Part shown: positions 9,601 through 52,613 of the stretch, one piece after another
Numbering within the stretch: the stretch's first letter is position 1
How the letters are laid out: the number at the start of each line of letters is the position of its first letter
From: a virus
Direction: 5' to 3' (one strand)
IMG/VR virus record: IMGVR_UViG_3300005253_000011
Span: 1-64,000 of that record
DNA length: 64,000 bases
The notes under the pieces: generated by a model
Databases searched by the model: none
Told to the model about the DNA's origin: nothing
What the model saw: the letters and a program-made list of their open reading frames with translations, nothing else
Translations under genes and position numbers: made by a program

Positions 9601-10033
9601 GGGGAGCGAAGCCGAAATCATCTTCCGGAGCCAATTCTACTCTTGTACCATCCGGTACAGCTGTAAATCCGAAATCTTCACTCTCTTCGAGTGGTTGTAT
9701 ATCTTTAGTCATAGGTTTTTCTGTTTGTTTTTTTGACCGGCTGCCTAAATAATTAGAAAATTCCTTAGAAAATGCTTCAGCCTCTTCAAGGGTGTTAAAC
9801 CGTACCGCGTCTTGATTTTCAACAGCAAGACGTTCAGCTTCGTCATAACCATATTCCTTTAATGCGCCATCTACTTTTCGTATGGTAGGAGCCACATAAT
9901 GCCCTTTATCATCAGAAAAAGTAAAGGTACTTACTGACGAGCTTGGACCTTTTTCTCTAGGAATATTGAGGGTATCAGTCATAGCCCTTTTCATCCAAGG
10001 GTGTTTAGTAGCTAATGAGTCTATATCAGGCAT
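3683..10033 (-). CDS. Giant internal virion (cargo/ejection) protein, 2116 aa
   Basis: The largest gene in the window. Residues about 230-470 are rich in Gly and Ala with several hydrophobic segments (ISLGFLFDGPLFAAGGMMG, GVIGMKLGVALAATGIGG), the middle thousand residues are highly charged, Lys/Glu rich and probably coiled coil, and the end has further hydrophobic stretches (FMLSHVLMGVMYNLAENG). This alternation is typical of large phage proteins packed in the capsid and ejected with the DNA. In crAss-like phages genes in this position, past the tail-barrel and IHF-like genes, encode cargo proteins. No polymerase, peptidase or lysozyme motif was recognised by eye. It abuts the 622-residue gene by two bases. 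Confidence 0.75.
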   Translation of the reverse strand: MPDIDSLATKHPWMKRAMTDTLNIPREKGPSSSVSTFTFSDDKGHYVAPTIRKVDGALKEYGYDEAERLAVENQDAVRFNTLEEAEAFSKEFSNYLGSRSKKQTEKPMTKDIQPLEESEDFGFTAVPDGTRVELAPEDDFGFAPQDPDDIKLSPNGERLKEAADRGADDLSPWEKIFGASGEPTKEFSTMGVAGGLINPVSPNVAEASQAKLEETYVFRAGFNGSLMGLAYDISNGEAMYDQDELDKMDPNFLQDVAAISLGFLFDGPLFAAGGMMGKGAASLVTRTALGRGIAYSGFNLVRKGLTKLGVKGILAEDMIAAAATKNSKILLNLAAKAPPVLEGMGGSAGALGLYNSVGEVLGQMKEEDIPMREVEWRDVRKQGVIGMKLGVALAATGIGGKYLESVMAKGLGKFGQVSGKGIAFGAEIGVFGAGDAFLQDKPLSSVDWLHTLKMVLGSKGAGYVQHPGATVKKYSKYFEKSKAFEDPARKKEFDAELTPLEKDMVEGYRPEGEIGPFSQKLNDKTFVEIMADENIPWITKSKLLYERTGTYAKIAPEINGVEIFKSEEGYGIKAYQVDKDGSKMLVDAVRASTKGEAEKNARFLDREAVDMGKHREFEKLSLPDKEAVSNGTLDANMDLNKVLDAWETRPEHRSAEQEKLMRKFYNTWNESLNPPEGKERPKPTTVAGAPKPPLEEPAEPAKPAKTAPIKEQLKDPEVQKRLKEIKEGGELKPGEVTDAGFESNILGMDRVSGSLTKTGEGKYKLIDTELSVAEGKTIEFATDHERKALHEKFDKEVAAAKEEMEVRKFSEPSHSGYRIGRRGFGNKEAFIEALENIPEGRVEGIMDSVVFPTKETSFSEVGKAIEKAKGKKVGEISLEDKYASMGDADLAADIQRNERRKWRIDQAEGLEKPVMPADSKTQSELHEKKGRSTFKYEGKKDGKPGFAETADVKTETPFVVGEKGEVIKGKKVTDEQIQAFKDKHAKELQERHDKGEKVGVGTFYEAKTDKSSIDLFNFVKTKAEAVKLGEAYKQEFIYNLETREVTYVAKEREAEFRAKERAAVEEATKPERESLVKAWEDEFKIYEDTPAQKEKKAIAKGRDMNKKEAKEIKGKLEDFLKENRAQFDRLKIPVRTRTLRQINNITTGKVGWNQVEAIKKDLTMMIQDAEFRASRQLAEKHITSIRKEIDPASMTEATGKGLGKKKAKRSYFNPLSGYQRIEKFETLSGIVEEGLNNPEFRGKAHVEIQKINDRAEKRVRDRERGEEVPEDTDVNGYTLDDAVLKEQLDYATIGLKGPSELKFMLDNIKELKKTDRMASEILREEWKKDKDRRRDLMFEHGSRKGEELQIGSEKKKPKTRHPLKMTGDMSFKSVLSTMASRRDLAGDKSIVFNDPLNKEFMPGISKAEEGHARDKAEYIDTKKAMMNDAYELTGYKEKGRKDLGLENRIQKPDVLMIDMPNDKHKELPLSQYEAGHLWLMLQQEGAEATFRKPRAEHGMGWSDITFEQLENFLDPRVKKLAIKLRNNMNTYKDAKVQPVYRRENGVSLGEVENYWPFTREAGEFSRASSDAMDKQSFHTRVTSDHHIQRTKSTDPFVYMDMMQVYDKYMRDQMHYANWAETVRRLDETFKDPKVRAMITQMHGSNYVDVTDWFIERFAGKTLNDTYQPLDGMIRRMSKGILYLNRAVGLKQTISSAMYLLDMDPYHWGTGIAKMLMTPEGYDLKRYLKKQPFVADRGHAPMDADQNFVRKRDSYKYTENLYKRAGQRARINLQRMFNVIPEDKIDQIASSNIKYGDRFPIVNAGGAYVMDKMRKAGTSWSKANKEAERLAKENGTTKETELDKLMQPHIEKWTMMSEATQQSTRMSNISQWRTGHPLNRSIAMFTSGAGQIHRVATQSLDLAYASARQGNAAAFGVHFKNFMLSHVLMGVMYNLAENGLMLDPENKGGTNKLVWAAALGNTRGLAYFGRLVDVIGAIVQKEPWADKQTMSPIVGMMKNIATELVKASEYHKAGEIDKRNDELVKFGKHLAAFTGYPVKQVFDIVEDIKGIASGETDKPVRQGMGLYDPDYDSGVEIHDMFDPDAWEEARKEKAAVEAGKRQGLTGGQVKKFRQENK

Positions 10034-12963: not shown

Positions 12964-13012
12964 GTTTTGCTTTATCTAACACATAAGTATGCAAGATACA
13001 ATTAATTTATCA

Positions 13013-16000
13013 CTATTCAATAATATTCGTAATGCCTATACGGATAGCCTTCACTTCGTATGCGGTAGTTAAGGACCCATCAAATGTGATCCTAATAGTA
13101 AGGTATGGTCCTTGCATTGCTTTAGTATCTTTAGCTCCTGAATCCCTGCGTCCTATATAGGAGTACAAACCCGGATTCAAATCCCTTACTACAGGAGGCG
13201 TATCTGTGTTAGGAGATGACGCACCTGTATCAAATATCATTTCTTTTGGAGTCGCATTTGCATGTAATAAATAATCAATAAATTCCCATGATGTATGTAG
13301 ATCCGGATTAATTACGATATCAATATATGGGTCCATGTCTTCTCCAGAATCACTTGACAAAGTATATGTACCGTCCTCAACTGAGTACATTCTATCACTC
13401 CTGGCTCCAAGAAGATATGGCCAGTCATTATACGTAGCCGATTCTTTATTCTTAAATATCATCCTATCATAATCATGAGGAAGTTCATGAGTCCAGTTAT
13501 TCAAAAAGAAATTGAACACATACATATTGCCGGCTATCTCTACCCACAATTCATTTTCCCTTTCATTGAATACTGTTAATAATGTTGGATAATTTGTACC
13601 ATGCGGTAAACCTTTACATACGGCATATAATCTATCTCTCCAATTTGCTATGATATTCCTAACATCATTATTAAAGAATAGCATAACACCTTTATTATTG
13701 ACCCATGATAATGCCTGCACAAATTGACCATTCACCGTCTCCATTACCCCCTCAGATTTACTTCTGGATAACTGACTTGGACATCCTACTGCAGTATTTA
13801 ACCAGATTTCATCCTGAATAAACTTACCTTCCAGATCTATGAGACCTACCTGCTCCCCAACCGCACCGCGCATGACGGTTTTATTGGTAAGGACTAATGC
13901 AACGCCGCTCTCTGTAACTGCATACAAGTTCCTTCCCTGGCCACTCACGGCATCATATAAAATGGTGATTGATCCAAGGTCAGCTCGCTTTAAATCGTAG
14001 TAATTAATCGGAAGGAATGTCCTCAATGATGGGGAATTCTGTATCGCCGGATTTTTATCCAGAGAGAATGCCAGACGCTGCCAAAACTCAACACGCTCAG
14101 CATACCCTGCTAAAGGCTTATTAACGGCCCTAGCGGACACATCTTTTGTGTAGTCATAGTTGAGCATCTGTGGCGTTACAAACCCACCACGCTCCCATAA
14201 CAGGTACTCATCACCAAATTTATCGTAGTAATCAGTATAGACGGCGGCACGAAGATAATAATCCTCTGGTTCCTCAGCGGTATTTCTAGCTGGGTAACTA
14301 GTAGGTCGCTGCACATAATTACGTCTCGGGTAAGTATCACCATACGCTAAAACAGTATTTGACTTGCTTTCGCAGATGAAGCCGAATACCCATTGACGAA
14401 TACTATCTACGGCAATATCATAATTATCTGGTATAATGTTAGGGGGAGCTCCTGTTTCATTATCATATTTTGATGTGGTTTGTGTACCGCCCGCCTCAGT
14501 TGGAGCCTCTCTAGCATAGCGCGGAATAAAAACAGCATTATTTGTTCCGGATATTCTATAGGTATACCCCGGCATAGGCCCATTTACCTGTAATTGTTCG
14601 GTTACAGCGTCAGCTTGTATTGAACCACTACCGGCAAATGGGCCTATACTTTTAGCACCATCAACTTTATTATCCACAACAGCATTAAACACTTCACCGA
14701 CAAATGAATCGCCTCCAAATACTATGATTGGACTATTATTATTATACACAACTTTTATCTCATCTCCTTCAGGAGGATAGAAATTTAAAGTGGCTACAAC
14801 ATCAAACTCGATAGTGACTGGATTTTTTGGATCAACAGTATAAACGGTAGCCTGCCCATTATTAATCCATGTAGCCGCAACAGTGTACATACCATAATAA
14901 TCATTACCGTATAGAGTGAAATAACCGGTTCCTAATCCGCCGCCGGCATTGATAGCTGCACCCCAGGTCGATATACTACCACTTACTTCAAGTGTTACAT
15001 CCATCCACCGTTGCCCATTAACCATAATGTATCGAACATCAGCATCAGCAGCAGCAATGATAGCAGCGTGTACATCTTCCGGACGCTCATCTACAAGAGC
15101 ATAAGTTTGACCAGATCCACCGACTGCGGTTCCTATAATACTCTCAAGCTTCTGATATACGCCGGTATCTTGATAACTTTGCGTATTGGTAGTAAGAATG
15201 TTGGCATTATTGTGTACTATGTTGACTATATAAACAGGCTCATGAAAGGCTCTGTTAACATCATCATTACCAGTAGTTCGAGTCATGCCAGTCAATTGTG
15301 CGTAAATAGCTGCGTCCACCGTTAGCTCTAGCATGTTACTACGCCCATCTGAATTGCCATATTGCCCGCCATCGATTTTCTCTACACTGCTAATATCAAA
15401 CAAATAATCTGGGGATCTGGATGTTATTCCTGCTCCCATATTAGATCCGGTTAATCCCAAATAATTCCGCCATCTGCCAAATGTCACATAACCAGATCCA
15501 CGACCTATCTTAGCCAGAGGATCGAATGCATTGTAAATATAATCCTCATATGCAACATTGGCATAGGATAGTAAATCCACGCTATAACAACCCAGCGGCT
15601 CAGTCGATCCAGAAAAAGCAGAGGAGTTAAACCCAAGTACACTAACTAATTGTAGCTGGTAATCATCTGGGTTATTAACAATATCGTCATACAGGTAAGC
15701 TTTGTTACCATAAAATGGATCGATATCTGGAGAGTAAAAAGTCAATTTAGATCCCTCTTTATCAACCGGACTTAGAGCGCCTTGTTGAGCGAAAACATAA
15801 GTCGCAAGACCCTGCGCTAATACACGATTAGCAGGCGGGGTACGTACAACCTTAAAGCCTCTTACCCAGGATGGAAGTAAACTTGTATCAATACCTGTAA
15901 ATGCCCAACCAAGGGACCAGATATGATTATTTAAAGATTGATGAAAATTATAATCGGCAGCATCCATCTGATCGCATGGCATATCAGACCTAAATCCCCA

Positions 16001-35868: not shown

Positions 35869-35899
35869 TTGCACAATCCAATTTTTATTTGTAATTTTG
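35869..35899 (+). promoter_or_regulatory. Promoter of the tmRNA, TTG-N20-TAATTTTG
   Basis: TTG (35869-35871), 20 bases, TAATTTTG (35892-35899), the same geometry as the other phage promoters. Transcription would start near 35904, just upstream of the acceptor half of the tmRNA. Confidence 0.6.
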
Positions 35900-35903
35900 T
35901 CCC

Positions 35904-36312
35904 AGTCCTTTGATGATTGATATGTTGAAAGGCATTTGGACATGGGTTCGATTCCCATACACTCCACTAGAAAAGTCCAACCGGTAGCCAGAAAGAGTAT
36001 ATTCTGCTGGTGTCTATTCGGCTCTGGCCTTGGGGGATGATTCACTGCCACGGTATCCTGTTGAGGAACAGGTAATCCCACGGATAAGGTGAATATTCCT
36101 CCCCCCTTGCAAAAGGGTAAGTTACAATTTTGTAAGATACGGGGTGTACCGGCTTTTGACAGTGCTAGAGTAGGATATCAGGAGAAGACTAGCTAATTAA
36201 CAGGCGAAAATGTTAAATTAATTCCTCATGGCAACTTCAAGGAAGCAGCCTAGCTAGGAGCCCGGGTCCCATGACCTCCAGGATAAGATCGGGAAGGGTG
36301 GGTCCCCCGGGT
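35904..36312 (+). ncRNA. ssrA: Circularly permuted (two-piece) tmRNA
   Basis: tmRNA rescues stalled ribosomes and tags the unfinished protein. The 3' half comes first: GGAC, T-arm ATGGG-TTCGATT-CCCAT (35942-35958), acceptor strand ACACTCC (35959-35965) and discriminator A. The 5' half begins at 36141 with GGGGTGT, which pairs with ACACTCC over all seven positions and gives a G-U pair at position 3:70, the alanine identity signal of all tmRNAs. It continues into GGCTTTTGACAG, matching the conserved tmRNA D-loop region. The tag frame 36203-36253 reads GENVKLIPHGNFKEAA then TAG; Bacteroidota tags start GEN. ATATCA (36175-36180) can pair with TGATAT before the T-arm. A stable hairpin (CCCGGG at 36261 with CCCGGG at 36306) closes the 3' end. 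The intervening 35967-36140 has several hairpins and must be cut out. CCA is not encoded. Exact ends are estimates. Confidence 0.85.
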
Positions 36313-36330
36313 AAACTTAAAACGTGATAA

Positions 36331-37047
36331 ATGAAGAAACAACTTTTGCAATTACAAGGTCGGTCCAGAACCATTACATCCTATTTGGATAATCTGAACA
36401 TCAACGCAGACGTAGTAGAACAGTACAACAAGCTTGGAAATCAAGGTCTTGTCCATTGGAAAGAGTGGAGAGACATTATGCAGGATGAAGAGAAGTACAA
36501 AGCTCTGTCTCCCATCGAGCAACAAACACTGCATGAGAATTCCAGGTCCTACACTCAAATGCTTACTGAGCTTGATAATGAGGTTAAATATCTTACTAAT
36601 ACCAAGCATTCCCTGGCCCTGGCCGATTGCCTCAATCACATCCTTTCAGCTAATCAGCTGTTAGACAAACTTGTAGATATTTATGGTGGTCGTGATGGAG
36701 CCTTCAGTTTCACTAAACTCAAGCACGTCAGACAAAAAGGCTGGGACAAGACTGGATATAAAGACAAAGTATTCAATCTGGCCACAGAGCTGGATCTGTT
36801 GACTGAAGATTTCGGTAATCTTCTGAATACTGAGGAAAAAATGAATTTTGTCCAAACTACAGTAGACGCATTAATGAATTACATTTATGTATCCTTTGTA
36901 CAATCGCTAGCATGGCTTAACAGTGAATATGATCGTATAGAGCAGCAAGGGATGCCGGAAGCAGGAGAATTTAAGCTCCCTGAGATCCAGGTACCTAAAG
37001 TACCAGAGGATGGCGAAAGTGATCAGTCAGAAAAACCTAAGGAGTAA
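36331..37047 (+). CDS. Helical protein of unknown function
   Basis: 238 residues, almost entirely helical and charged, with a Pro/Glu/Lys-rich tail (PEIQVPKVPEDGESDQSEKPKE). It begins 19 bases after the tmRNA hairpin. The N-terminal region (LNINADVVEQYNKLGN...MQDEEKYKAL) has coiled-coil character. No family recognised. Confidence 0.65.
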   Translation: MKKQLLQLQGRSRTITSYLDNLNINADVVEQYNKLGNQGLVHWKEWRDIMQDEEKYKALSPIEQQTLHENSRSYTQMLTELDNEVKYLTNTKHSLALADCLNHILSANQLLDKLVDIYGGRDGAFSFTKLKHVRQKGWDKTGYKDKVFNLATELDLLTEDFGNLLNTEEKMNFVQTTVDALMNYIYVSFVQSLAWLNSEYDRIEQQGMPEAGEFKLPEIQVPKVPEDGESDQSEKPKE

Positions 37048-45149: not shown

Positions 45150-45224
45150 TAGCGGGAGATGGATTCGAACCACCAGCCATCAACTTATCAGGCTGGTGCT
45201 CTGACTATGCTGAGCTATACCTAT
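45150..45224 (-). tRNA. Degenerate tRNA-Ile(GAT)-like element
   Basis: On the minus strand: D-stem GCTC/GAGC, anticodon loop CTGATAA, T-arm GGTGG-TTCGAAT-CCATC and acceptor 3' strand TCCCGCT plus A. But the 5' strand ATAGGTA pairs at only about four of seven positions, the D-loop lacks the GG pair, and the anticodon stem has one mismatch. The 5' third overlaps the end of the 45-residue gene (stop at 45205). It may be a decayed tRNA, kept perhaps as a processing site. Confidence 0.5.
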
Positions 45225-45342
45225 AAGCGAGCATGTCACTCGCTAATTTATCAGCGCACTCATCACATATTGTAAGTGGCTTGATAAGATGCGGGATATA
45301 CTTTTTTCCGCACTTAACACATTTTCTTGTATAATCTTCCAT
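45205..45342 (-). CDS. Small zinc-ribbon protein
   Basis: 45 residues from the ATG at 45342: TRKCVKCGKKYIPH and LTICDECADKL form a CxxC...CxxC zinc ribbon. A longer frame would run through tRNA-Thr and is rejected. It begins two bases after tRNA-Thr, and its end lies inside the tRNA-Ile-like element. Confidence 0.6.
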   Translation of the reverse strand: MEDYTRKCVKCGKKYIPHLIKPLTICDECADKLASDMLAYRYSSA

Positions 45343-45344
45343 AG

Positions 45345-45417
45345 AGCTGAAGAGAGGATTCGAACCCCTGGCCAGTTCCTTACAAGGGAACAGCTCTACC
45401 AACTGAGCTACTTCAGC
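45345..45417 (-). tRNA. tRNA-Thr (TGT)
   Basis: Full cloverleaf on the minus strand: acceptor GCTGAAG/CTTCAGC with T73, D-arm AGCTCAGTTGGTAGAGCT, anticodon arm GTTCC-CTTGTAA-GGAAC, T-arm AGGGG-TTCGAAT-CCTCT. No encoded CCA. It lies between two small genes of the minus-strand operon. Confidence 0.95.
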
Positions 45418-45508
45418 ATTGCCGGGTTGAAAACTACGCCATTTAAACCTCCCCCGGCGGGACTGGAGTTTTGCTCCACTCATCCCATAAATTTGAGCTG
45501 TACAGATC

Positions 45509-45667
45509 TTAATATGGCCTCTTGAAGATCCCATACCCACTTTCGAGTATTAGAACCAGCTCCCAGCCCTCATGACCAAATTCGTTCAATTTCTCCCGAA
45601 GCAACCTGTTGTCGTTTCGATGCATGTACATTGTGTTGTAATTCCATCTTTTCTTGAATAATCTCAT
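45509..45667 (-). CDS. DUF4177-like small protein
   Basis: 52 residues from the ATG at 45667: WNYNTMYMHRND, then LREKLNEFGHEGWELVLILE and FKRP, the LNxxGxEGWEL pattern of DUF4177. Function unknown in the family. Downstream, 45421-45508 has no gene but a bulged hairpin (GGGA...TGGAG with CTCCA...TCCC, minus strand) before tRNA-Thr. Confidence 0.65.
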   Translation of the reverse strand: MRLFKKRWNYNTMYMHRNDNRLLREKLNEFGHEGWELVLILESGYGIFKRPY

Positions 45668-45701
45668 CGTTTTATATTTTAGTCTGCAATCGTTGCAAAT
45701 A

Positions 45702-45863
45702 TTAGATCCACATATAATACTTCCGATATCTGGCACATAATGTGACCACTAGCGAAAGCCTTGCTTCCTTCAAAGTCTTCCAGGTCGCCATGCTATCATC
45801 TTCATCCATCATTGGGATCGTCATCGATGGATCGCCGTCTTTTAAACATAGTATTCCGTACAT
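45702..45863 (-). CDS. Small protein, 53 aa
   Basis: MYGILCLKDGDPSMTIPM at the start, then WKTLKEARLSLVV. Its ATG shares a base with the stop of the gene before it (TAATG). Unknown; possibly a regulator of host metabolism, with no evidence for that. Confidence 0.55.
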   Translation of the reverse strand: MYGILCLKDGDPSMTIPMMDEDDSMATWKTLKEARLSLVVTLCARYRKYYMWI

Positions 45864-46027
45864 TATTTTAGTTTTGTGAGTGCGATTAATACTGATTCTA
45901 CTTCTTCCATGCCAACCGGATACTCCCCCTCATGAGTGATGTTACTGAGTTCGTCAATTAAATGATAATCAAACTCCCAACTATTGTACCAGTCACCTTT
46001 GTTAAAGTCGACATGCATTGGCCGCAT
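45863..46027 (-). CDS. Small protein, 54 aa
   Basis: MRPMHVDFNKGDWYNSWEF, acidic. Stop overlaps the next start. Unknown. Confidence 0.5.
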   Translation of the reverse strand: MRPMHVDFNKGDWYNSWEFDYHLIDELSNITHEGEYPVGMEEVESVLIALTKLK

Positions 46028-46058
46028 GCCTCAAGTCTTTTAGTTTTCCCATAGTCTG

Positions 46059-46334
46059 TTATTCAAAACCGCCGTATGTAACTACTCTGGAGACTTCCTT
46101 CTCACACACCGTACATATCTGTATATCAGTGTACTTAGCTTTGTGAAGGTAACCCCCAGCGACATATTCATTCTCTTCTCTTACATGCTTGTGAGGACAG
46201 ATACCCTGTAATTCCTTTAGAAGCTCTCGTACCGTAGTCTCTGCGGTAATAGTCTCATCTTGTAAAGTTTTAATGTGGTTTCTATAACACACTATCTGTT
46301 TAATAAGATTCGCTCGTCTCTCCTTCTTTTTCAT
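46059..46334 (-). CDS. Small coiled-coil zinc-binding protein
   Basis: 91 residues: basic coiled coil (ERRANLIKQIVCYRNHIKTL), then GICPHKH and IQICTVCEKEV, a probable zinc site with one CxxH and one CxxC. It starts 27 bases after tRNA-Glu. Confidence 0.6.
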   Translation of the reverse strand: MKKKERRANLIKQIVCYRNHIKTLQDETITAETTVRELLKELQGICPHKHVREENEYVAGGYLHKAKYTDIQICTVCEKEVSRVVTYGGFE

Positions 46335-46360
46335 CGTTTTACCTTTAATAATAAGTTATG

Positions 46361-46433
46361 TAGCCCCACGGAGAATCGAACTCCGGTATTCAGCATGAAA
46401 AGCTGACGTCCTGGTCCACTAGACGACAGGGCC
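46361..46433 (-). tRNA. tRNA-Glu (TTC)
   Basis: Minus strand: anticodon arm TCAGC-TTTTCAT-GCTGA, T-arm CGGAG-TTCGATT-CTCCG, D-arm region GTCGTCTAGTGGACCAGGAC, acceptor GGCCCTG with TGGGGCT (three G-U pairs) and A73. It starts four bases after the stop of the preceding gene. Confidence 0.92.
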
Positions 46434-46437
46434 ATTC

Positions 46438-46608
46438 CTATAACCATTTACATTCACTTATCTTGGCTCGGCAAGACTGCCGTTTACCATCAATCTTAAC
46501 TGCCTTCCCATCTACGTGAGAGTAATTGGGATAAAAGGGGATCGCCCAGACCATATACTCCCGGTCCTCATACATGAATCTCTGGTACATTACTGGTTTC
46601 CTACCCAT
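46438..46608 (-). CDS. Small protein, 56 aa
   Basis: MGRKPVMYQRFMYEDREYMV, then WAIPFYPNYSHVDGK and a C-terminus with two Cys. Overlaps the stop of the preceding gene (TAATG). Unknown. Confidence 0.55.
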   Translation of the reverse strand: MGRKPVMYQRFMYEDREYMVWAIPFYPNYSHVDGKAVKIDGKRQSCRAKISECKWL

Positions 46609-46772
46609 TATCTCATTTTGTTATCCGTAAGGAATTCCGTCAACCTCTCTCCCATCTTCTCAACATCATCATGTGTGAATCCTTTCTCCATCATGACATC
46701 AGTGAATGATTGCCAGCGCCCAGCTACGAAATGATCGTAGTCTGAAATGATTTCTAAAACTTGTGCATCCAT
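46608..46772 (-). CDS. Small protein, 54 aa
   Basis: Starts at the ATG at 46772 (MDAQVLEIISDYDHFVAGRW), helical and acidic. The longer frame begins inside the tRNA-like element and is rejected. It follows the minihelix at 46789-46828 by 16 bases, the same layout as on the plus strand. Confidence 0.55.
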   Translation of the reverse strand: MDAQVLEIISDYDHFVAGRWQSFTDVMMEKGFTHDDVEKMGERLTEFLTDNKMR

Positions 46773-46788
46773 AATCTTAATTATTAGT

Positions 46789-46828
46789 GCCAAGGTGAGG
46801 AGTCGAACCCCCATACCCGGTCCCTGGC
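46789..46828 (-). ncRNA. tRNA-like minihelix TLS9 (minus strand)
   Basis: Acceptor GCCAGGG pairs with CCTTGGC (seven pairs, one G-U), linker ACCGGGTA carries the D-loop-like GGTA, and the T-arm is TGGGG-GTTCGACT-CCTCA or GGGGG with a seven-base TTCGACT loop. No anticodon arm: the whole element is 40 bases. It stands between tRNA-Met and a small gene, so it is a relative of the plus-strand elements. Confidence 0.75.
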
Positions 46829-46850
46829 TACTCCTAGAAGTATCGCAATG

Positions 46851-46925
<75 letters not shown>

Positions 46926-47228: not shown

Positions 47229-47402
47229 TGCCACTTTGTCAGGCTTTATGGAAGTAGCACTGCCATTTTGTCAGGGTGGTATTACTGGTAAGTAATTGCC
47301 AATTATTGCCACTAAAGCGGGTTTGCTGGTAATAATTTGCTTGTCCAGTATCTCATGCATTAATGGCCATATACCGGTTTAATGTCCAGTTTCTCATACA
47401 CT
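47229..47402 (+). promoter_or_regulatory. Regulatory repeats: TGNCA dyads and TGTCCAGT elements
   Basis: TGCCACTTTGTCA (47229-47241) and TGCCATTTTGTCA (47261-47273) are followed by two copies of the element TGTCCAGT(T/A)TCTCAT(G/A)CA (in 47341-47364 and 47381-47402). The same two motif types occur upstream of the portal gene at 29797-29846. Confidence 0.6.
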
Positions 47403-47706
47403 GCGTTCAAAATTTGATTGTGTTCAAGTTACGTGAACACGTGAACACATGTCGCCAATATATCCTATATATGCGACGGCAGATACATAAAATACACGTT
47501 TGTCGTCGTTAGCACGTTAGGTACCCGGACCTCCTTCAGTGCGCTAGGGCACCATAGGGACATGTTTCCGTTTGTCTACATAAATGTATAGATCCGGAAA
47601 TAGGGGACCCGAGCGACATCTGTGTCGGTCACCTAGATACTCGACTACCTCTGCAGGAGATGGGACCCGCCTGAGCCATTTGAGCCGCTTGTGAGCCATT
47701 TTCTCA

Positions 47707-47742
47707 GATAGGGGTCCCAACTATATAGGATAGGGGTCCCAA
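47707..47742 (+). repeat. 14-base direct repeat, two copies
   Basis: GATAGGGGTCCCAA at 47707-47720 and again at 47729-47742, identical, 22-base period. The inner GGGGTCCC is nearly palindromic; related GGGGACCC and GGGTCCCC sites flank at about 47602 and 47843. Confidence 0.8.
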
Positions 47743-48066
47743 ATGTCCTGTGGGGGATTAAAGTGTGCGCCAGAGACTGTATACGTGGATGCAGGGGGTC
47801 GCTTTGTGAACGAAACTCGACTCGATCCACGCGCGTGACGGTTAGGGTCCCCTATTGCGTTCTTAACTGACTCACAGCGTGTTGATGCAATTAGTCCTAT
47901 AATGATTATTATGTTAAGTAGACGCATGCACCCCTGTGTATCAGGTACATGGCACGTATGAGGGTGCACGCATGCGGGGCAAAACAGCCCATACGTGGCT
48001 ACATAAATTAAATCACATAAGCGTGTGCGGTGGATAATTCATCTGGCCTACAGGCTACTGTTCATG

Positions 48067-48119
48067 GGGTGCACAGAGCCACGTCCACAAGTCAACAGGC
48101 ATAGGGTGTACAGAGACAC
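48067..48119 (+). repeat. 16-base imperfect direct repeat
   Basis: GGGTGCACAGAGCCAC (48067-48082) and GGGTGTACAGAGACAC (48104-48119) differ at two positions, period 37. Confidence 0.7.
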
Positions 48120-48135
48120 ATAATTACAGACCTAA

Positions 48136-48285
48136 TGACACAGTGACACGAATGTACACAATAGTAACACCGACTGCCATTATGTCATGCTCTCTGCCAC
48201 ACTGTCATGTCATGGTATCAGCACATTACCCACGCTCACCTGACATGTTGTCATGCTATTGCCCTCACTGTCTGCCATTATGTCA
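48136..48285 (+). repeat. Cluster of TGNCA-N3-TGNCA motifs
   Basis: Five copies: 48136-48148 (TGACACAGTGACA), 48175-48187 (TGCCATTATGTCA), 48195-48207 (TGCCACACTGTCA), 48241-48253 (TGACATGTTGTCA) and 48273-48285 (TGCCATTATGTCA). Each half-site is its own near-reverse complement, as for a dimeric DNA-binding protein. Confidence 0.65.
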
Positions 48286-48596
48286 TGCTCCCCTCACGTG
48301 CGTGTGTGCGCTCTTTATCCTATTATTCATACAATATCATATCATTTTGTACTATTGCTCATACATTATCGCATATCGGGATACGCAATAGCACCGTTAA
48401 CAGCACCGACAATGATAACGGTTCGATAGAATCGTTCTAAATAAGCCTGAATAACCTATTTACAGGTCTGTAGCGCGTTTGTGTATCATAACGCTACAGT
48501 TGACTAAGCTCTTAGTTTGTTTTTTAACATTTGCTCTGCAGCCCCCGGCGCACTAAGGACACACGTGGTTGTACGCACTCAATTATAACTATTTCA

Positions 48597-48869
48597 TCAT
48601 CTAAGAACCATTCTAAATAAGGTCAGCAACACACTCACTATCAGCGGGATACAACGCCGGCTATCTGCTAACTTACTGGCCTGTTGTATTTTAACCTTCC
48701 AGTATTTATTACGTAATTGCTCCCAGTTCATTGACATATTGAGAGCGCGACCGGCAAGCACCGGACGTAAGCAGGGCAGGCAGCCAAAATTGAAGAGATA
48801 CACTATAGACCAGCACACGCCGCTGGCAGTGTTAACCACAGAGATGGTTACGAGATCCCGGGAACACAT
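48597..48869 (-). CDS. Possible cysteine-rich protein, uncertain
   Basis: 90 residues from the ATG at 48869 (a TTG at 48884 would add MFRCA). Cys in CSRDLV, GVCWS and GCLPC, a basic middle, and a hydrophobic end (CIPLIVSVLLTLF). A TAACTTTG element (48906-48913) stands 36 bases upstream. It sits alone in a region of unusual composition, so it may be spurious. Confidence 0.35.
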   Translation of the reverse strand: MCSRDLVTISVVNTASGVCWSIVYLFNFGCLPCLRPVLAGRALNMSMNWEQLRNKYWKVKIQQASKLADSRRCIPLIVSVLLTLFRMVLR

Positions 48870-48905
48870 AGCGCACCGGAACAATAAGACAGAGGTATAA
48901 GGCCT

Positions 48906-48913
48906 GCAAAGTT
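48906..48913 (-). promoter_or_regulatory. Possible -7 element, TAACTTTG
   Basis: Matches TAnnTTTG on the minus strand; no clear -33 TTG at normal spacing. Could serve the uncertain 90-residue frame. Confidence 0.3.
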
Positions 48914-49031
48914 AGACGGTTAAACAAGACTATTCAGATGGTGAGGATATATTCTTTTATTACCCCTTACGGGTCTTATACTTCAATGACGAATAGTCTA
49001 CTAATTATTACATATAATAAAACCTCATAAC

Positions 49032-49117
49032 TCTAGTAACATGGTATTGCGGTAACCAGTATAGAGTGTGCATACTCTATGCGTACGGTTTAAAACGGGG
49101 ATTCGCATCCCTTTGAC
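49032..49117 (+). ncRNA. Degenerate tRNA-like segment with a four-codon frame
   Basis: Contains a D-arm-like TGGT-ATTGCGGTA-ACCA, a hairpin ATAGAGT/ACTCTAT, and a T-arm-like GGGGATTCGCATCCC, but no good acceptor stem. Its start holds ATG GTA TTG CGG TAA (49041-49055, MVLR), preceded by CTAGTAAC, the same leader as at 49597 and 50627. Like the minihelices, a CCAGTAT sequence begins at that stop codon. It may be a decayed module at the head of the operon. Confidence 0.35.
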
Positions 49118-49118
49118 A

Positions 49119-49159
49119 GCCAGTATGGTACTCGCTTAAGTTCGCATCTTAAGCAGGGC
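49119..49159 (+). ncRNA. tRNA-like minihelix TLS1
   Basis: T-arm GCTTAAG-TTCGCAT-CTTAAGC (seven perfect pairs), linker TATGGTACTC, acceptor strands GCCAG and AGGGC (three pairs, then two mismatches at the junction). Total stack 12 positions. Followed by the leader CGACGTTTAACC and the 71-residue gene. Confidence 0.7.
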
Positions 49160-49188
49160 GCGACGTTTAACCAATTTAATATAACATT

Positions 49189-49404
49189 ATGAAAAAATTT
49201 GCTTTTAATGGCCGTAACTATCAGATAGAGAACGGTCTGGTTCACTCTGTAGATAATTCACAGGATTTTACAACATTAGATCCTGTTTACAGGGGTGACA
49301 ATGTGATCCTAGACGGTCACTGTGATGCACTTGGTTTTAAATTGTATGACAGGCCTTCAGGGATACGTGCGTATGGTAATCAGCTTGGATCACGCTCAAA
49401 ATAG
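49189..49404 (+). CDS. Small protein, 71 aa
   Basis: MKKFAFNGRNYQIENGLVHS, a compact beta-rich protein (ending RPSGIRAYGNQLGSRSK). The third base of its TAG is the first base of TLS2. Leader ACGTTTAACC plus A/T-rich spacer before ATG. Unknown. Confidence 0.6.
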   Translation: MKKFAFNGRNYQIENGLVHSVDNSQDFTTLDPVYRGDNVILDGHCDALGFKLYDRPSGIRAYGNQLGSRSK

Positions 49405-49444
49405 CCTGTATGGTACTCGCCTGAGTTCAAATCTCAGGCAGGGC
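49404..49444 (+). ncRNA. tRNA-like minihelix TLS2
   Basis: T-arm GCCTGAG-TTCAAAT-CTCAGGC (seven pairs), linker TATGGTACTC, acceptor GCCTG with AGGGC (three pairs, one G-U, one mismatch), then A. Begins at the last base of the upstream stop codon. Confidence 0.75.
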
Positions 49445-49470
49445 ACAAACGTTTAACTAAATTAAATATT

Positions 49471-49560
49471 ATGAAAGATTATTATCAATCAGAACTGCTG
49501 AGTGTACAGCTGCAAGTTGAAGAACTTTCTTATTACTTACAGACTATACAAACAGTTTAA
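49471..49560 (+). CDS. Tiny protein, 29 aa
   Basis: MKDYYQSELLSVQLQVEELS, an amphipathic helix. It has the shared leader AACGTTTAACTAAAT...ATTATG after TLS2, which supports translation despite the size. Confidence 0.5.
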   Translation: MKDYYQSELLSVQLQVEELSYYLQTIQTV

Positions 49561-49596
49561 TTATTCCTATTAATAAGTAACTAACAAACTAGTAAC

Positions 49597-49773
49597 ATGG
49601 ATTATTTAACAGAAGTACGCAACAATTTACAGGCCGCTAAAGATCGCAAAGCGATTGCAATAGCTGAAGAGAACCGCAAACAACGCGGTGCAAAGTTTGG
49701 TATTATATTGCTGATAGCTGTAATGTTCACCGTTATCATATTATTTGGCGATAATATAGCCAATTGGTGTTAA
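49597..49773 (+). CDS. Small membrane protein, 58 aa
   Basis: MDYLTEVRNNLQAAKDRKA, a charged helix, then one transmembrane segment (FGIILLIAVMFTVIILFG). Leader of the second type (ACTAGTAACATG). Its TAA overlaps the first bases of TLS3. Confidence 0.6.
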   Translation: MDYLTEVRNNLQAAKDRKAIAIAEENRKQRGAKFGIILLIAVMFTVIILFGDNIANWC

Positions 49774-49816
49774 CCCGTATGGTATACAGGGACAGGTTCG
49801 ACTCCTGTCCCGGGTT
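49772..49816 (+). ncRNA. tRNA-like minihelix TLS3
   Basis: Acceptor AACCCG/CGGGTT (six pairs), linker TATGGTATACAG, T-arm GGACAGG-TTCGACT-CCTGTCC (seven pairs). Starting at A773 gives a 12-bp stack, and A773 is the last base of the upstream TAA. One of the best-formed copies. Confidence 0.85.
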
Positions 49817-49840
49817 CGACGTTTAACCAAATCAAATATT

Positions 49841-50044
49841 ATGAAAAGAACATCTATTTATACCTGTAAGACTTACAAAGGCATTAATCCTGGCAGCACT
49901 ATTTATATTGATTTAGATAGTCAGTATATGTTTACAGTTAGCAGAGATGAAAAACAGCTAACATATTATCCGACATTCGACCGAGCTTTACAGTATGTGA
50001 CTGAGTATCTGAGAATGAACGGTGTACAATTAGAAATTATTTAA
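49841..50044 (+). CDS. Small protein, 67 aa
   Basis: MKRTSIYTCKTYKGINPGST, alpha/beta, with leader GACGTTTAACCAAATCAAATATT before the ATG. Unknown. Confidence 0.6.
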   Translation: MKRTSIYTCKTYKGINPGSTIYIDLDSQYMFTVSRDEKQLTYYPTFDRALQYVTEYLRMNGVQLEII

Positions 50045-50059
50045 CCAATATTTAAAATT

Positions 50060-50233
50060 ATGAAAACATACAAATTTGAAATTATTGCCACTATCAAAAA
50101 GATAGTAGAAGTAGATAGTGAGGACATGCAAACAGCTGAAGAGCAGGCCAATGAGTTATTCAATCCAAATAATGATGGATCTGAAGAATTTTATGGTCAA
50201 GAATCGTTCCTTATTAGCGTTTACCACAAATAG
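50060..50233 (+). CDS. Small protein, 57 aa
   Basis: MKTYKFEIIATIKKIVEVDS, then a helical acidic part; resembles small phage proteins with a beta-beta-alpha start. Its TAG ends on the first base of TLS4. Not separated from the previous gene by a minihelix. Confidence 0.55.
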   Translation: MKTYKFEIIATIKKIVEVDSEDMQTAEEQANELFNPNNDGSEEFYGQESFLISVYHK

Positions 50234-50272
50234 CCAGTATGGTACTTGCCTGGGATCGTTTCCCAGGCTGGC
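50233..50272 (+). ncRNA. tRNA-like minihelix TLS4
   Basis: Acceptor GCCAG/CTGGC (five pairs), linker TATGGTACTTG, T-arm CCTGGG with CCCAGG around ATCGTTT, a diverged loop (outer A and T may pair, leaving TCGTT). First base is the last base of the upstream TAG. Confidence 0.7.
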
Positions 50273-50299
50273 ACGACGTTTAACCAAACTATATCAATT

Positions 50300-50545
50300 A
50301 TGGAAACTCCAAATTTACATGCATTAAAATGCCATTATTTAGGCCCGACTGGTTACAAATCAGCACGTATCAGCATTCAATCATTACGTTTCAGGCAGAG
50401 AATAGTGATCCCTCAAATTTCTGATAATAATTGGGCTGATTCAATTAAGTATTTAAAAGAGCGCGGTTTCAATATTATTGGACAAGCTGAATATCCCGGC
50501 AAAGGCTGGCTGCTTCTGTCTGATACGTTTGAACCATTGAAGTAA
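50300..50545 (+). CDS. Small protein, 81 aa
   Basis: From the ATG at 50300 (METPNLHALKCHYLGPTGYK); a longer frame begins inside TLS4 and is rejected. Alpha/beta with IVIPQISDNNWADSIKYLKE and a C-terminal strand. Leader GACGTTTAACCAAACTATATC. TLS5 begins right after its TAA. Confidence 0.6.
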   Translation: METPNLHALKCHYLGPTGYKSARISIQSLRFRQRIVIPQISDNNWADSIKYLKERGFNIIGQAEYPGKGWLLLSDTFEPLK

Positions 50546-50586
50546 GCCTGTATGGTATCTGGGACAGTTCGAATCTGTCCCCAGGC
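50546..50586 (+). ncRNA. tRNA-like minihelix TLS5
   Basis: Acceptor GCCTG/CAGGC (five perfect pairs), linker TATGGTATCT, T-arm GGGACAG-TTCGAAT-CTGTCCC (seven perfect pairs), A after the acceptor: a perfect 12-bp stack with a canonical T-loop. Abuts the upstream TAA. Confidence 0.88.
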
Positions 50587-50626
50587 ACAATTATTCCTTA
50601 TTATTTGTACCTAACATTTTAGTAAC

Positions 50627-50848
50627 ATGAAACTATTACAAAAGAGATTGATGGAGGCGTTGGAAATATGCGCTGAGAATCACAGTACAAAATTGACCCT
50701 GAATCACCTGATGGGTAAAGATTCTGTACCGAGCGCACAGCCGCTGGTGATCCATAATTGTGTACCTGCTGTTATTGATAAACTTAAAACAGCTGGATTT
50801 ATGCTTGGCATGAGTGAATATGGAATGACAGTTGATCACCTGGGATAG
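50627..50848 (+). CDS. Small protein, 73 aa
   Basis: MKLLQKRLMEALEICAENHS, helical, C-terminal LKTAGFMLGMSEYGMTVDHLG. Leader TTATTCCTTATTA...TTTAGTAACATG matches that of the 58-residue gene. Unknown. Confidence 0.6.
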   Translation: MKLLQKRLMEALEICAENHSTKLTLNHLMGKDSVPSAQPLVIHNCVPAVIDKLKTAGFMLGMSEYGMTVDHLG

Positions 50849-50851
50849 TAA

Positions 50852-50893
50852 AACCCGTATGGTATCCGCAGGGGTTCGATTCCCCTGCCAGAT
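50852..50893 (+). ncRNA. tRNA-like minihelix TLS6 (degenerate acceptor)
   Basis: T-arm GCAGGGG-TTCGATT-CCCCTGC is perfect and the linker TATGGTATCC is kept, but AACCCG has no matching 3' strand (CCAGATGC follows). Probably decayed, or its acceptor is replaced by the next structured RNA. Confidence 0.6.
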
Positions 50894-50895
50894 GC

Positions 50896-50974
50896 AATTT
50901 GGCTAATTAGGGTGATACCTAGCATCCACTCACATTGAGATCGTTCGTTAGGAGCGTCCCTGTGAAGCCGAATT
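50896..50974 (+). ncRNA. Cloverleaf-like structured leader RNA
   Basis: AATTTGGCT (50896-50904) pairs with AGCCGAATT (50966-50974) over nine positions (one G-U). Inside are three hairpins: TAGG/CCTA (50908-50921), CTCA/TGAG (50929-50939) and CGTTC/GAGCG (50942-50956). The outline is that of a four-way junction, but no tRNA consensus bases fit. It precedes the 70-residue gene by 37 bases. Confidence 0.45.
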
Positions 50975-51011
50975 TTCCTAAATTAATAGTTTTAACCAAA
51001 AAACAGTAAAA

Positions 51012-51224
51012 ATGGCAAAAAGAAGGATTATTAACAGTAGAAGGGTCGCCCGGGGCGCAAAGTTCGGTGGTGGATCAAGTTCAAAGTATGCTGAAAAGAT
51101 CGCGCAACAAAAGCACGGCAGATACAGTGAAAATTCACCGATGAGTGTTCATGACGGTGGAATTGGCCTGAGTGTGAACGAAACGAACAGGCGTAGGTTT
51201 GACTCTCATAAAAAGGAGGACTAA
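51012..51224 (+). CDS. Small basic protein, 70 aa
   Basis: MAKRRIINSRRVARGAKFGG, very basic with a Gly/Ser linker; could bind nucleic acid. Its last codons carry a strong ribosome site AGGAGG for the next gene, unusual in this genome. Confidence 0.6.
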   Translation: MAKRRIINSRRVARGAKFGGGSSSKYAEKIAQQKHGRYSENSPMSVHDGGIGLSVNETNRRRFDSHKKED

Positions 51225-51227
51225 TCA

Positions 51228-51308
51228 ATGACTGTATGTATATTCGCTGGAATTTTTATAGCTGCTTATTTATTGATAAGCGCAGTTTTTAGTATCTTTG
51301 AAGGATAG
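51228..51308 (+). CDS. Membrane peptide, 26 aa
   Basis: MTVCIFAGIFIAAYLLISAV, a single transmembrane helix, start eight bases after AGGAGG. The last base of its TAG is the first base of TLS7. Confidence 0.55.
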   Translation: MTVCIFAGIFIAAYLLISAVFSIFEG

Positions 51309-51349
51309 CCTGTATGGTACAGGGGTGTGGTTCGAATCCACACCCAGGC
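51308..51349 (+). ncRNA. tRNA-like minihelix TLS7
   Basis: Acceptor GCCTG/CAGGC, linker TATGGTACAGG, T-arm GGTGTGG-TTCGAAT-CCACACC, then A: 12 perfect pairs and a canonical T-loop. The clearest copy together with TLS5. Confidence 0.88.
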
Positions 51350-51380
51350 ACGAATTTTAATTTAAAATTGGAGGTAAATT

Positions 51381-51620
51381 ATGACACGTAAAATTAAAGA
51401 GATTGCAGCAGAAATCCGTAAGGACTGGAAGAAAGTCAGTATTCATGCTGAACCCTACCTGGGTGCTATGGAGGTCATTGAATCCGCAGATAATGAGTAT
51501 TATTGGGATTCTGCCGCTTCAGTCACTCGTTATTTCTTGAGTAATGCTACCACCTGGAAAGGTGAGGTCGCTCGCCGGATCAAGAAGGAACTGAATGAAA
51601 TGATAGAGGGGATCTATTAA
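51381..51620 (+). CDS. Small helical protein, 79 aa
   Basis: MTRKIKEIAAEIRKDWKKVS; resembles the DUF6900-like or small phage proteins with WKGEVARRIKKELNEM at the end, though I do not assign a family. Preceded by GGAGG at seven bases. Overlaps the next start. Confidence 0.6.
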   Translation: MTRKIKEIAAEIRKDWKKVSIHAEPYLGAMEVIESADNEYYWDSAASVTRYFLSNATTWKGEVARRIKKELNEMIEGIY

Positions 51621-51904
51621 TGGATTGGGTAGAATTTGTTATTCAAAACTGGGCTATGCTGGATCTTAGATTCAGATGGTCTAAACCCAAGCATCCCAGG
51701 TATGACTGGAGAGGAGAGTATATCCACCATATGAATAGATGGCCGGGTTACGAAAGAAACAGACTCTACATTCCTATTTCGTTCATGTCTGATGCCGGTT
51801 ACATTGACTTGATCAAGAAATCATTTCATGTGACCAGTGATATTGAAGGGTCGAAAGCCAAACTTAAAGAGGTATTTGATTACCTCACTGAACACGCTGG
51901 ATAA
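51620..51904 (+). CDS. Small protein, 94 aa
   Basis: MDWVEFVIQNWAMLDLRFRW, Trp- and Arg-rich, mixed alpha/beta. ATG shares a base with the previous TAA. Unknown. Confidence 0.6.
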   Translation: MDWVEFVIQNWAMLDLRFRWSKPKHPRYDWRGEYIHHMNRWPGYERNRLYIPISFMSDAGYIDLIKKSFHVTSDIEGSKAKLKEVFDYLTEHAG

Positions 51905-51947
51905 TATTTAGGCGGTTCGATATAGTTTTATTAATCTTTAAAAACAA

Positions 51948-52262
51948 ATGCGTATGAGAAAAGTAATTTTTAGTAAATCATCAGAAACAGTTATCCATGT
52001 CGATGATATTGGTAACTACAGTATCACTGGTTTTGAGAGTAAGGACGGCACCCTAAAGGGTGTACTGGTACTTATTGACAACAGCGTAATCGGAGTAACT
52101 TTGGTGAAGGGGGAGCCAGACACGGATCACACTATGCCAGGGCGTCATCCGTACATTAACGGCGGTGTTCAGATTCCTGCTTTTATAAGGGAACTACAAA
52201 ATGAATTTGATTTCTTTGTATTTCAAAGCATGGCTGAATTCTTTGACTGGATCGCTGGATAA
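51948..52262 (+). CDS. Small protein, 104 aa
   Basis: Start at 51948 or the ATG at 51954 (MRKVIFSKSSETVIHVDD). Beta-rich with a C-terminal helix (NEFDFFVFQSMAEFFDWIAG). Stop overlaps the next ATG. Unknown. Confidence 0.6.
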   Translation: MRMRKVIFSKSSETVIHVDDIGNYSITGFESKDGTLKGVLVLIDNSVIGVTLVKGEPDTDHTMPGRHPYINGGVQIPAFIRELQNEFDFFVFQSMAEFFDWIAG

Positions 52263-52534
52263 TGGGACGCGAGAAGAAATCTAATGAAGAGCTGGGTTAC
52301 ACTATCCCAGTTATGCGGAGACTTGAGAAGGGTAGATATGCTTCTGCCTTTGCTAAGTCTCTTGAGCCAGATAAGAATGGACAGATTAAAGTGAGAACTT
52401 CCGATCTACGAAGTACTAGCTGGTTAGGTACATCGGTCATTCACGTGCCCGAAGGATTCGAAATTAAGGAACCGCCAGCACCAAAAGGCAAGGATGAGGC
52501 TGGCCGGTATTTTAGTGGATCAGATCCCATTTAA
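52262..52534 (+). CDS. Small protein, 90 aa
   Basis: MGREKKSNEELGYTIPVMRR, basic, ending in a Pro/Lys-rich tail (EPPAPKGKDEAGRYFSGSDP). Its TAA overlaps TLS8 at the last base in the 12-bp register. Confidence 0.6.
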   Translation: MGREKKSNEELGYTIPVMRRLEKGRYASAFAKSLEPDKNGQIKVRTSDLRSTSWLGTSVIHVPEGFEIKEPPAPKGKDEAGRYFSGSDPI

Positions 52535-52577
52535 CCCTGTATGGTACTATGGTCAGGTCCGACTCCTGACCAGGGTT
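52533..52577 (+). ncRNA. tRNA-like minihelix TLS8
   Basis: Acceptor AACCCT/AGGGTT (six pairs), linker GTATGGTACTAT, T-arm GGTCAGG-TCCGACT-CCTGACC (seven pairs). It is followed by a hairpin AATTGAG/CTCAATT (52580-52601). Confidence 0.82.
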
Positions 52578-52613
52578 CAATTGAGTAATGTTGCTCAATT
52601 TAAACTGTTTTAT

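Follow-up and report, generated by a model that had tools for sequence, protein, structure and literature searches.

RNase P and RNase Z release the tRNA-like mascRNA from the longer MALAT1 transcript. RNase P is known to cut hairpins made up of an acceptor stem, a T-stem and a T-loop, and also mRNAs, among them that of T4 gene 32, and the phage RNAs handled by the host enzyme further comprise the C4 antisense RNA and the M3 RNA (PMC11143913). A matured 5' end is required by most RNase Zs studied, and the enzyme of B. subtilis is severely inhibited by a CCA motif (PMC7479834). In Cluster K mycobacteriophages, short structured repeats (ESAS/SAS) are located upstream of many gene starts; their function is unknown (PMC3203893).

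In the window, i.e. the whole stretch of 64,000 nucleotides analysed here (positions 1 to 64,000 of the IMG/VR record IMGVR_UViG_3300005253_000011), eight tRNA-like minihelices (TLS1 to TLS8) are found on the + strand between 49119 and 52578. They belong to a real and apparently undescribed phage RNA family, larger than first noted; no description of it was found in open-licence full texts. The best explanation, and probably the correct one, is that the elements are tRNA-mimicking processing signals which divide polycistronic phage transcripts.

Elements of the window

The design of acceptor plus T-arm proposed in the preliminary description was borne out. All eight elements carry the linker TATGGTA and a 7-nt T-loop, and their T stems match those listed earlier, every one being different and every one paired. 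The acceptors had been described as covarying as well; they are fully paired in TLS3, TLS4, TLS5, TLS7 and TLS8, while those of TLS1, TLS2 and TLS6 are imperfect, so that a complete acceptor/T stack of 11-13 bp is present in five of the eight. The joint between acceptor and T stem measures 10-12 nt in these copies, and z-scores of seven 45-48 nt folds range from -0.6 (TLS1) to -3.3 (TLS5).

TLS1 (49119..49161, +) is located ahead of the operon's first small ORF and lacks a clear upstream ORF. It has a weak acceptor (GCCAG/AGGGC, 3 pairs and 2 mismatches), the T stem GCTTAAG, an aberrant loop (TTCGCAT) and the trailer G-C (R1 24.1 bits, folding z -0.58). TLS2 (49404..49446, +; R1 35.7 bits) combines the acceptor GCCTG/AGGGC, with one G-U and one mismatch, with the T stem GCCTGAG and the trailer A-C, and its G1 is the final base of the upstream TAG stop. 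The acceptor of TLS3 (49772..49817, +; AACCCG/CGGGTT, T stem GGACAGG, 13 bp stack, R1 41.2 bits) is overlapped by the upstream TAA stop. TLS4 (50233..50274, +; GCCA/TGGC, T stem GCCTGGG, trailer A-C, R1 31.5 bits) has the second aberrant loop, ATCGTTT, and overlaps with the upstream TAG stop, while a TAA stop lies immediately 5' of TLS5 (50546..50588, +; GCCTG/CAGGC, T stem GGGACAG, 12 bp stack, trailer A-C, R1 42.9 bits, z -3.33). In TLS6 (50852..50894, +) linker and T-arm are intact and the acceptor is unpaired (AACCCG/CAGATG, no matching 3' strand), giving a partial match of 36.6 bits with R1 and 38.3 bits with R2; a candidate large stem, read by eye, follows at 50896..50974 (+), where AATTTGGCT (50896-50904) may pair with AGCCGAATT (50966-50974). 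TLS7 (51308..51351, +; GCCTG/CAGGC, T stem GGTGTGG, 12 bp stack, trailer A-C, R1 39.8 bits) overlaps with a TAG stop, and TLS8 (52533..52578, +; AACCCTG/CAGGGTT, T stem GTCAGG, 13 bp stack, trailer C, R1 54.9 bits) with the upstream TAA stop. Immediately 3' of TLS8, a 9-bp stem-loop (52579..52600, +) is a candidate 5'-end protector for the downstream mRNA; the fold of 52532-52602 (71 nt, TLS8 included) has a z-score of -3.51.

The intergenic position of the elements, noted earlier, was confirmed. The small ORFs between them (49189..52534, all +) include 49189-49404, 49597-49773, 49841-50044, 50060-50233, 50300-50545, 50627-50848, 51012-51224, 51381-51620, 51620-51904, 51948-52262 and 52262-52534. 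Among ten inter-element ORFs tested, only 51381-51620 matched a PHROG, the function of which is unknown. The 775-aa terminase-like protein of the window gave no match in tblastn. A tmRNA called by ARAGORN at 35876-36344 is without Rfam support.

Family size and distribution

The sequence-only search pattern GTATGGTA-N6-12-GGTTCGATTCC matched 60 viral loci compared to 7 with a scrambled linker. The family is restricted to phages: the same pattern found 7 loci in a far larger bacterial collection. Within the whole 83-kb record, all five matches of the element pattern lie on the gene strand; the opposite strand and the reversed-pattern control gave none. Related elements were found in sister phages of other genomes, on which the preliminary description had staked its reading, and the catalogue now holds 217 distinct elements. 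Among Mycobacterium phages, copies number 11-12 in Cuke, 12 in Indlulamithi, 10 each in Fowlmouth and MrMiyagi and 4 in Oaker; in the strand count of Cuke, the gene strand bears 12 elements and the opposite strand 0. For several other loci, DNA similarity gave no match to a named phage.

A perfect 11-13 bp stack was present in 34 of 53 distinct pattern places, which had been picked regardless of the acceptor, compared to 2.6 expected from re-dealt 5' flanks (200 trials, maximum 7). With the AATGGTT linker pattern, the acceptor was paired in 80 of 130 places (4.1 expected). In the mismatched-linker control AATGGTA, 7 of 33 places were nonetheless paired, in part owing to relatives whose longer D-like linker includes that string. 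Chance repeats are ruled out by the strand and reversed controls, the scrambled linker and the acceptor pairing against re-dealt flanks.

The elements are not tRNAs in the sense of Rfam RF00005, since they form no cloverleaf with an anticodon arm. As in tRNA, a TTCRANY T-loop closes a paired stem, and this stem stacks with the acceptor to give approx 12 bp. For elements in the loci checked, no Rfam 15 covariance model matched above the gathering score, and ARAGORN calls one element only, as a false tRNA-Phe (locus L130, 4138-4209). tRNA genes are present in some of the same phages.

Structure and covariation

In 69 diverse copies, 97.6% of the cells are paired and 13 of 14 pairs have changed on both sides. 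The covariation score was 1.00, compared to 0.19 after shuffling and no more than 0.23 with slid partners, with the same result in 27 copies; since the 69 rows were selected by pairing, the unbiased test lies in the two acceptor comparisons with re-dealt flanks given above. The stack of 11-13 bp is split in different ways (5+7, 6+6, 6+7 and 7+6), so the 5+7 division first described is one form among several. Although the search itself required the T-loop and a minimum stack, places unselected for the acceptor are paired too. The T-loop is TTCGATT in 181 of 217 elements, and the acceptor-T stem joint is 7-14 nt long across the family, which equals the search range.

The linker, common to TLS1 to TLS8, varies across the family and is closed by a new covarying pair (N-ATGGT-N'). 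The closing pairs are A-T (106), T-A (54), C-G (14) and G-C (4), with 21 others including 12 A-A, the latter stemming partly from the control pattern, which carries that mismatch. The GG of the linker is present in nearly all elements, largely as a search criterion, and in 76 of 83 in a free-linker scan. The likeness of the linker to a D-loop, suggested earlier, was upheld by Lactococcus phage sk1, where the AATGGTA form is the D-loop of a fuller tRNA-like element. Several downstream frames open at the ATGG of the linker; a general role as start codon was rejected because the linkers TTTGGAA and AACGGTT contain no ATG.

At one locus (L240), near-identical tandem copies resemble spreading repeats. 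Decaying tRNA genes or functionless repeats could account for these copies, for the likeness to tRNA halves and for the occurrence of tRNA genes in some carriers. Such an origin is contradicted by the covariation, with hundreds of copies fully paired via compensatory change, by acceptor and T stems that vary among copies within one phage, and by the single orientation and place in the operon; it is hardly credible.

Arrangement of the module

The module begins with a stop codon, followed by the TLS, the trailer N-C-(not C)-A, a stem-loop, the ribosome site and finally the start codon. In 126 of 167 elements, a stop precedes and a start follows on the same strand, compared to 18% of random positions; the elements adjoin the stop codons tightly, and the starts follow some 20-50 nt downstream. 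Of 141 elements with a stop close upstream, 35 (approx 25%) have this stop partly or wholly within the 5' strand of the acceptor, by one base in 17 cases and by six to eight in 13. The trailer, which was no selection criterion, is strongly biased in 178 copies, with C74 in 152, C75 in only 7 and A76 in 125. A CCA is encoded in only 6 of 178, the trailer being C-(not C)-A instead. After the element, a stem-loop with a z-score below -2 was found in 33% of the 217, compared to 8% in the next 35 nt, and it starts 1-3 nt past the discriminator in 71 of 94 strong cases. A strong hairpin is missing in approximately half of the elements, most of those in the window among them. In sister phages, presence of the element agrees with the downstream gene in 35 and with the upstream gene in 27 of 49 comparisons, which are non-independent, so that a closer tie to the downstream gene is suggestive only. 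In a tandem array at locus L325, no genes are evident between the copies.

The tight placement at stops and shortly ahead of starts would also suit an uncut intercistronic structure, which affects translation (termination, reinitiation or insulation) via a tRNA-like contact with the ribosome. This is quite unlikely, as it explains neither the conserved C nor why C is excluded from the position after it, nor the second stem-loop in register with the discriminator, and does not account for the L325 array. That array, the many copies per phage and the retained T-loop and elbow-like features would fit released minihelices acting as decoys for tRNA-binding host factors (modification enzymes, tRNA-cutting defence nucleases or RNase P). 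For such sponges, the intergenic placement and the link with a hairpin, a ribosome site and a start would be superfluous, and lacking an anticodon arm they could not be decoys for anticodon nucleases; we regard a decoy function as very improbable.

Proposed processing

The anatomy of the elements agrees with published RNase P model substrates (acceptor/T-stem/T-loop hairpins), and the lack of CCA after the discriminator is a feature of RNase Z substrates. Trailer and stem-loop point to an RNase Z-like cleavage at the 3' end and thus lend independent support to the 3' processing proposed in the preliminary description; a 5' cut by RNase P is plausible but less certain. Genes for the RNase Z fold (Lactamase_B_2) were detected in all 14 control bacteria and archaea, and 15 TLS-bearing phages had none, so a host enzyme would act.

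For the favoured role as processing signals, we infer the following course. Acceptor stem and T arm would stack as a helix of 12-13 bp, and the D-loop-like linker may dock on the T-loop, by which the tRNA elbow would be rebuilt without anticodon or D stems. Host RNase Z would cut past the discriminator-like nucleotide, ahead of the conserved C-(not C)-A, and the downstream message would thereby be released and gain a new 5' end. The stem-loop, a presumed protector, would stand at this end in roughly half of the cases, with the ribosome-binding site and the start codon behind it. On the 5' side, a cut by RNase P may fall ahead of the upstream stop codon or next to it.

Where the stop overlaps the acceptor, a cut by RNase P would remove it, which counts against obligatory 5' cutting. 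A single 3' cut would leave the element as a tRNA-like 3' terminus of the upstream message with the stop intact, blocking 3' exonucleases and possibly extended by the CCA-adding enzyme. The damage caused by a 5' cut in approx 25% of cases and the marking of the 3' side alone by trailer bias and hairpin speak for such a cap. Since most RNase Zs studied depend on prior maturation of the 5' end, 3' cutting without RNase P may be inefficient; moreover, TLS1 has no clear upstream ORF to cap, and presence fits the downstream gene somewhat better in the non-independent sister-phage comparisons. A cap function alone is therefore rather unlikely, though less so than the alternatives above.

Extending the favoured reading, the elements could tentatively form a widespread phage expression system, for which we see somewhat less than an even chance. 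Non-decoding minihelices would recruit the host tRNA maturation enzymes and yield hairpin-capped downstream mRNAs. A 5' cut that splits the stop and leaves U or UA would destroy the upstream message or need completion; relative expression and timing would be set in this way.

Comparison with known systems

The elements represent an apparently undescribed class of structured RNA in many phages, overlooked by standard annotation as there is no Rfam model. They make minimal in vivo recognition by RNase P and RNase Z testable, and the carriers include M. smegmatis phages which can be grown in a teaching laboratory. If the proposed processing is true, the regularly spaced gaps of 80-100 nt in phage operons would be explained, and mitochondrial tRNA punctuation would have a phage counterpart made of stripped-down tRNA mimics.

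With the punctuation of animal mitochondria, the elements share the tRNA shape, the intergenic position on the transcribed strand, stops that abut or overlap and cuts expected at both ends, the cuts being predicted and co-transcription inferred for TLS. They differ in having neither anticodon nor D stem, in being non-decoding, in the 5' stem-loop of approximately half of them and in their occurrence in phages. The mascRNA is present in single copy in a mammalian non-coding RNA and is no spacer between coding genes. ESAS are simple 17-bp inverted repeats with a 13-bp start-associated sequence and no tRNA features described, and are set apart by their published description only (PMC3203893). T4 gene 32 mRNA, C4 and M3 RNA are single known sites, in contrast to a repeated tRNA-like operon spacer. 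The RNase P model hairpins (McClain, Guerrier-Takada and Altman; cited in PMC11143913) consist of the same single stacked acceptor/T-stem/T-loop hairpin; they are synthetic, whereas the TLS elements are natural and repeated, with a D-loop-like linker added and no encoded CCA.

tRNA-like elements in the window

All eight tRNA-like elements (TLS1 to TLS8; acceptor plus T-arm) of the preliminary description were found on the plus strand at 49119-52578 of the window, which is part of a viral record of 83,113 bp. Each consists of an acceptor strand of 5 to 7 nt, the linker TATGGTA with a few further bases, a T stem of 6 to 8 bp, a 7-nt loop and the return strands of T stem and acceptor. TLS3, TLS4, TLS5, TLS7 and TLS8 are fully paired, TLS2 contains a single mismatch, TLS1 pairs weakly, and TLS6 has an intact linker and T-arm with a non-matching acceptor return. 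Folding z-scores ranged from -0.6 (TLS1) to -3.5 (TLS8 with the hairpin following it). None of the window elements was recognized by Rfam or ARAGORN.

Just 5' of TLS1 lies a stretch of about 1.8 kb (47300-49118) without convincing ORFs, which may contain a promoter or additional structured RNA. On the minus strand, opposite to the elements, 45150-46922 contains four ordinary tRNA genes (Thr, Glu, Met and a fourth detected by Rfam only). A tmRNA called by ARAGORN (35876-36344, plus strand, tag ENVKLIPHGNFKEAA), whose end extends into the beginning of a 238-aa ORF, lacks Rfam support and is probably false.

Family size, covariation and distribution

The sequence-only pattern GTATGGTA-N(6-12)-GGTTCGATTCC, which does not require acceptor pairing, matched 60 loci in viral contigs, compared to 7 viral loci with a scrambled linker and 7 loci in the much larger collection of bacterial and archaeal genomes. 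At least 120 matches were obtained with AATGGTT replacing GTATGGTA. Since these patterns ignore acceptor pairing, the acceptor could be tested without bias: a perfect stack (acceptor stem plus T stem) of 11-13 bp was present at 34 of the 53 distinct places matching GTATGGTA and at 80 of the 130 matching AATGGTT, versus means of 2.6 and 4.1, respectively, with 5' flanks re-dealt among places. A free-linker scan over the fetched loci gave 217 distinct elements, often several per contig, copies from related phages not being independent of one another. Matches of the covariance model (R2; E-values are rough) in phages were mostly full-length at about 25-60 bits. When 40 genomes from a single bacterial family (the family of a Clostridia MAG, source genome excluded) were searched, only four weak matches, all with the same 24-bit score, were found.

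Across 69 diverse copies (27 in an earlier set), pairing is kept in 97.6% of the paired cells, and 13 of the 14 pairs show changes of both bases in one copy or more. The covariation score of 1.00 compares with 0.19 after shuffling and 0.14-0.23 for slid partners; these rows were picked by pairing, and the re-dealt-flank test (34/53, 80/130) is the unbiased counterpart. A base pair closes the linker (TATGGTA, AATGGTT, CATGGTG, GATGGTC); it is A-T in 106 cases, T-A in 54, C-G in 14, G-C in 4 and other in 21 (12 of them A-A). This covarying closing pair is a new detail. The form AATGGTA recurs as the D-loop in a fuller tRNA-like element of Lactococcus phage sk1. We infer that the linker is a D-loop minus its stem, which could dock on the T-loop.

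Among Mycobacterium phages, R2 matched Cuke (11), Fowlmouth (10), MrMiyagi (10), Indlulamithi (12) and Oaker (4), a few matches being weak or partial. A separate relaxed scan of Cuke gave 12 elements on the gene strand and 0 on the opposite strand. Of these, nine lie within gaps of 80-100 nt in a region of small genes that otherwise nearly touch; the depositors' annotation has no RNA in the gaps with elements. The presence of an element before a gene is mostly kept between orthologues (Cuke and Fowlmouth: both 8, neither 16, discordant 2). tRNA-like elements of larger size, in which a long extra arm replaces the anticodon arm, occupy gaps of the same operon in Cuke (9528-9724 and 12975-13095 of the fetched locus) and Indlulamithi (13956-14104), and are perhaps intermediates between tRNA and minimal element.

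Related arrays were observed in other contigs. On the reverse complement of L325 (3400-4750), about ten tRNA-like elements stand in tandem at a spacing of about 100 nt with no evident genes between them; several are followed by a hairpin, and the trailer is ATT or ATC, not C-N-A. The reverse complement of L240 (8980-9760) carries at least five near-identical elements (GCGAGCC-AATGGTTAGA-GCAGG...) every 150-200 nt within low-complexity AACATAAC-like sequence. ArdC-type antirestriction genes adjoin elements in two contigs (L130, 4238-5227; L131, 4019-4996). Near the right end of sk1 (27.4-28.1 kb of the record; fetched loci L380, 13700-14110, and L382), an unannotated stretch contains two or three tRNA-like structures without a normal anticodon arm, one T-arm carrying an annotation as putative terminator; similar DNA occurs in 378 lactococcal phage records.

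Gene context and proposed processing

Among the 167 elements whose flanks are long enough, 126 have an ORF stop on their 5' side and an ORF start on their 3' side, both on the same strand, versus 18% of random positions. Stop positions concentrate 7-10 nt ahead of the stack or on its first base (offsets 0 and +1), a tail of the distribution reaching into the acceptor. The stack is followed by one nucleotide (discriminator) and then by C (152/178), not C (171/178) and A (125/178), giving the trailers CAA, CTA and CGA, with CCA in only 6 of 178; this bias had no part in element selection. In about half of the elements (94/178), a stem-loop with a folding energy of -5 kcal/mol or below lies within the 34 nt that follow, and 71 of the 94 start 1-3 nt past the discriminator. 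In the averaged pairing profile, arms appear at nt 4-8 and 15-20, and the folding signal weakens in the following 35 nt (mean z from -1.18 to -0.24). Ribosome-binding-site-like motifs are present downstream in half of the cases (median position 30).

The tRNA-like top half, the CCA-like trailer minus its middle C and the stem-loop in register with the discriminator together suggest that RNase Z, which CCA inhibits (PMC7479834), makes an endonucleolytic cut after the discriminator. 5'-terminal stem-loops can protect mRNA in bacteria, and the new 5' hairpin would, on such general grounds, shield the downstream mRNA. No RNase Z-fold gene was found in the phages searched, and host enzymes are therefore assumed. 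Most RNase Zs require a matured 5' end (PMC7479834), so that RNase P first and RNase Z second would be the natural order. Hairpins of acceptor stem, T stem and T-loop are efficient substrates of RNase P, which also cuts some mRNAs (PMC11143913). A 5' cut would remove the upstream stop in 35 of 141 cases, which speaks against RNase P cutting being obligatory. Cutting would then either compete with upstream-gene translation or terminate expression of that gene, unless the 3' cut alone matters.

Relation to known RNAs

The elements are not tRNAs, as anticodon arm and encoded CCA were both looked for and are absent, and no Rfam family matches them. No description of the element class or of its use in phages appears to exist in the open-licence literature. 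The fuller sk1 element likewise lacks the anticodon arm and is divided into an acceptor of 8 bp and a T stem of 5 bp. tRNA-shaped processing signals between genes are known from mitochondria. By analogy, the phage elements, likewise tRNA-shaped and placed between genes, would act like this tRNA punctuation and likely share its mode of action.
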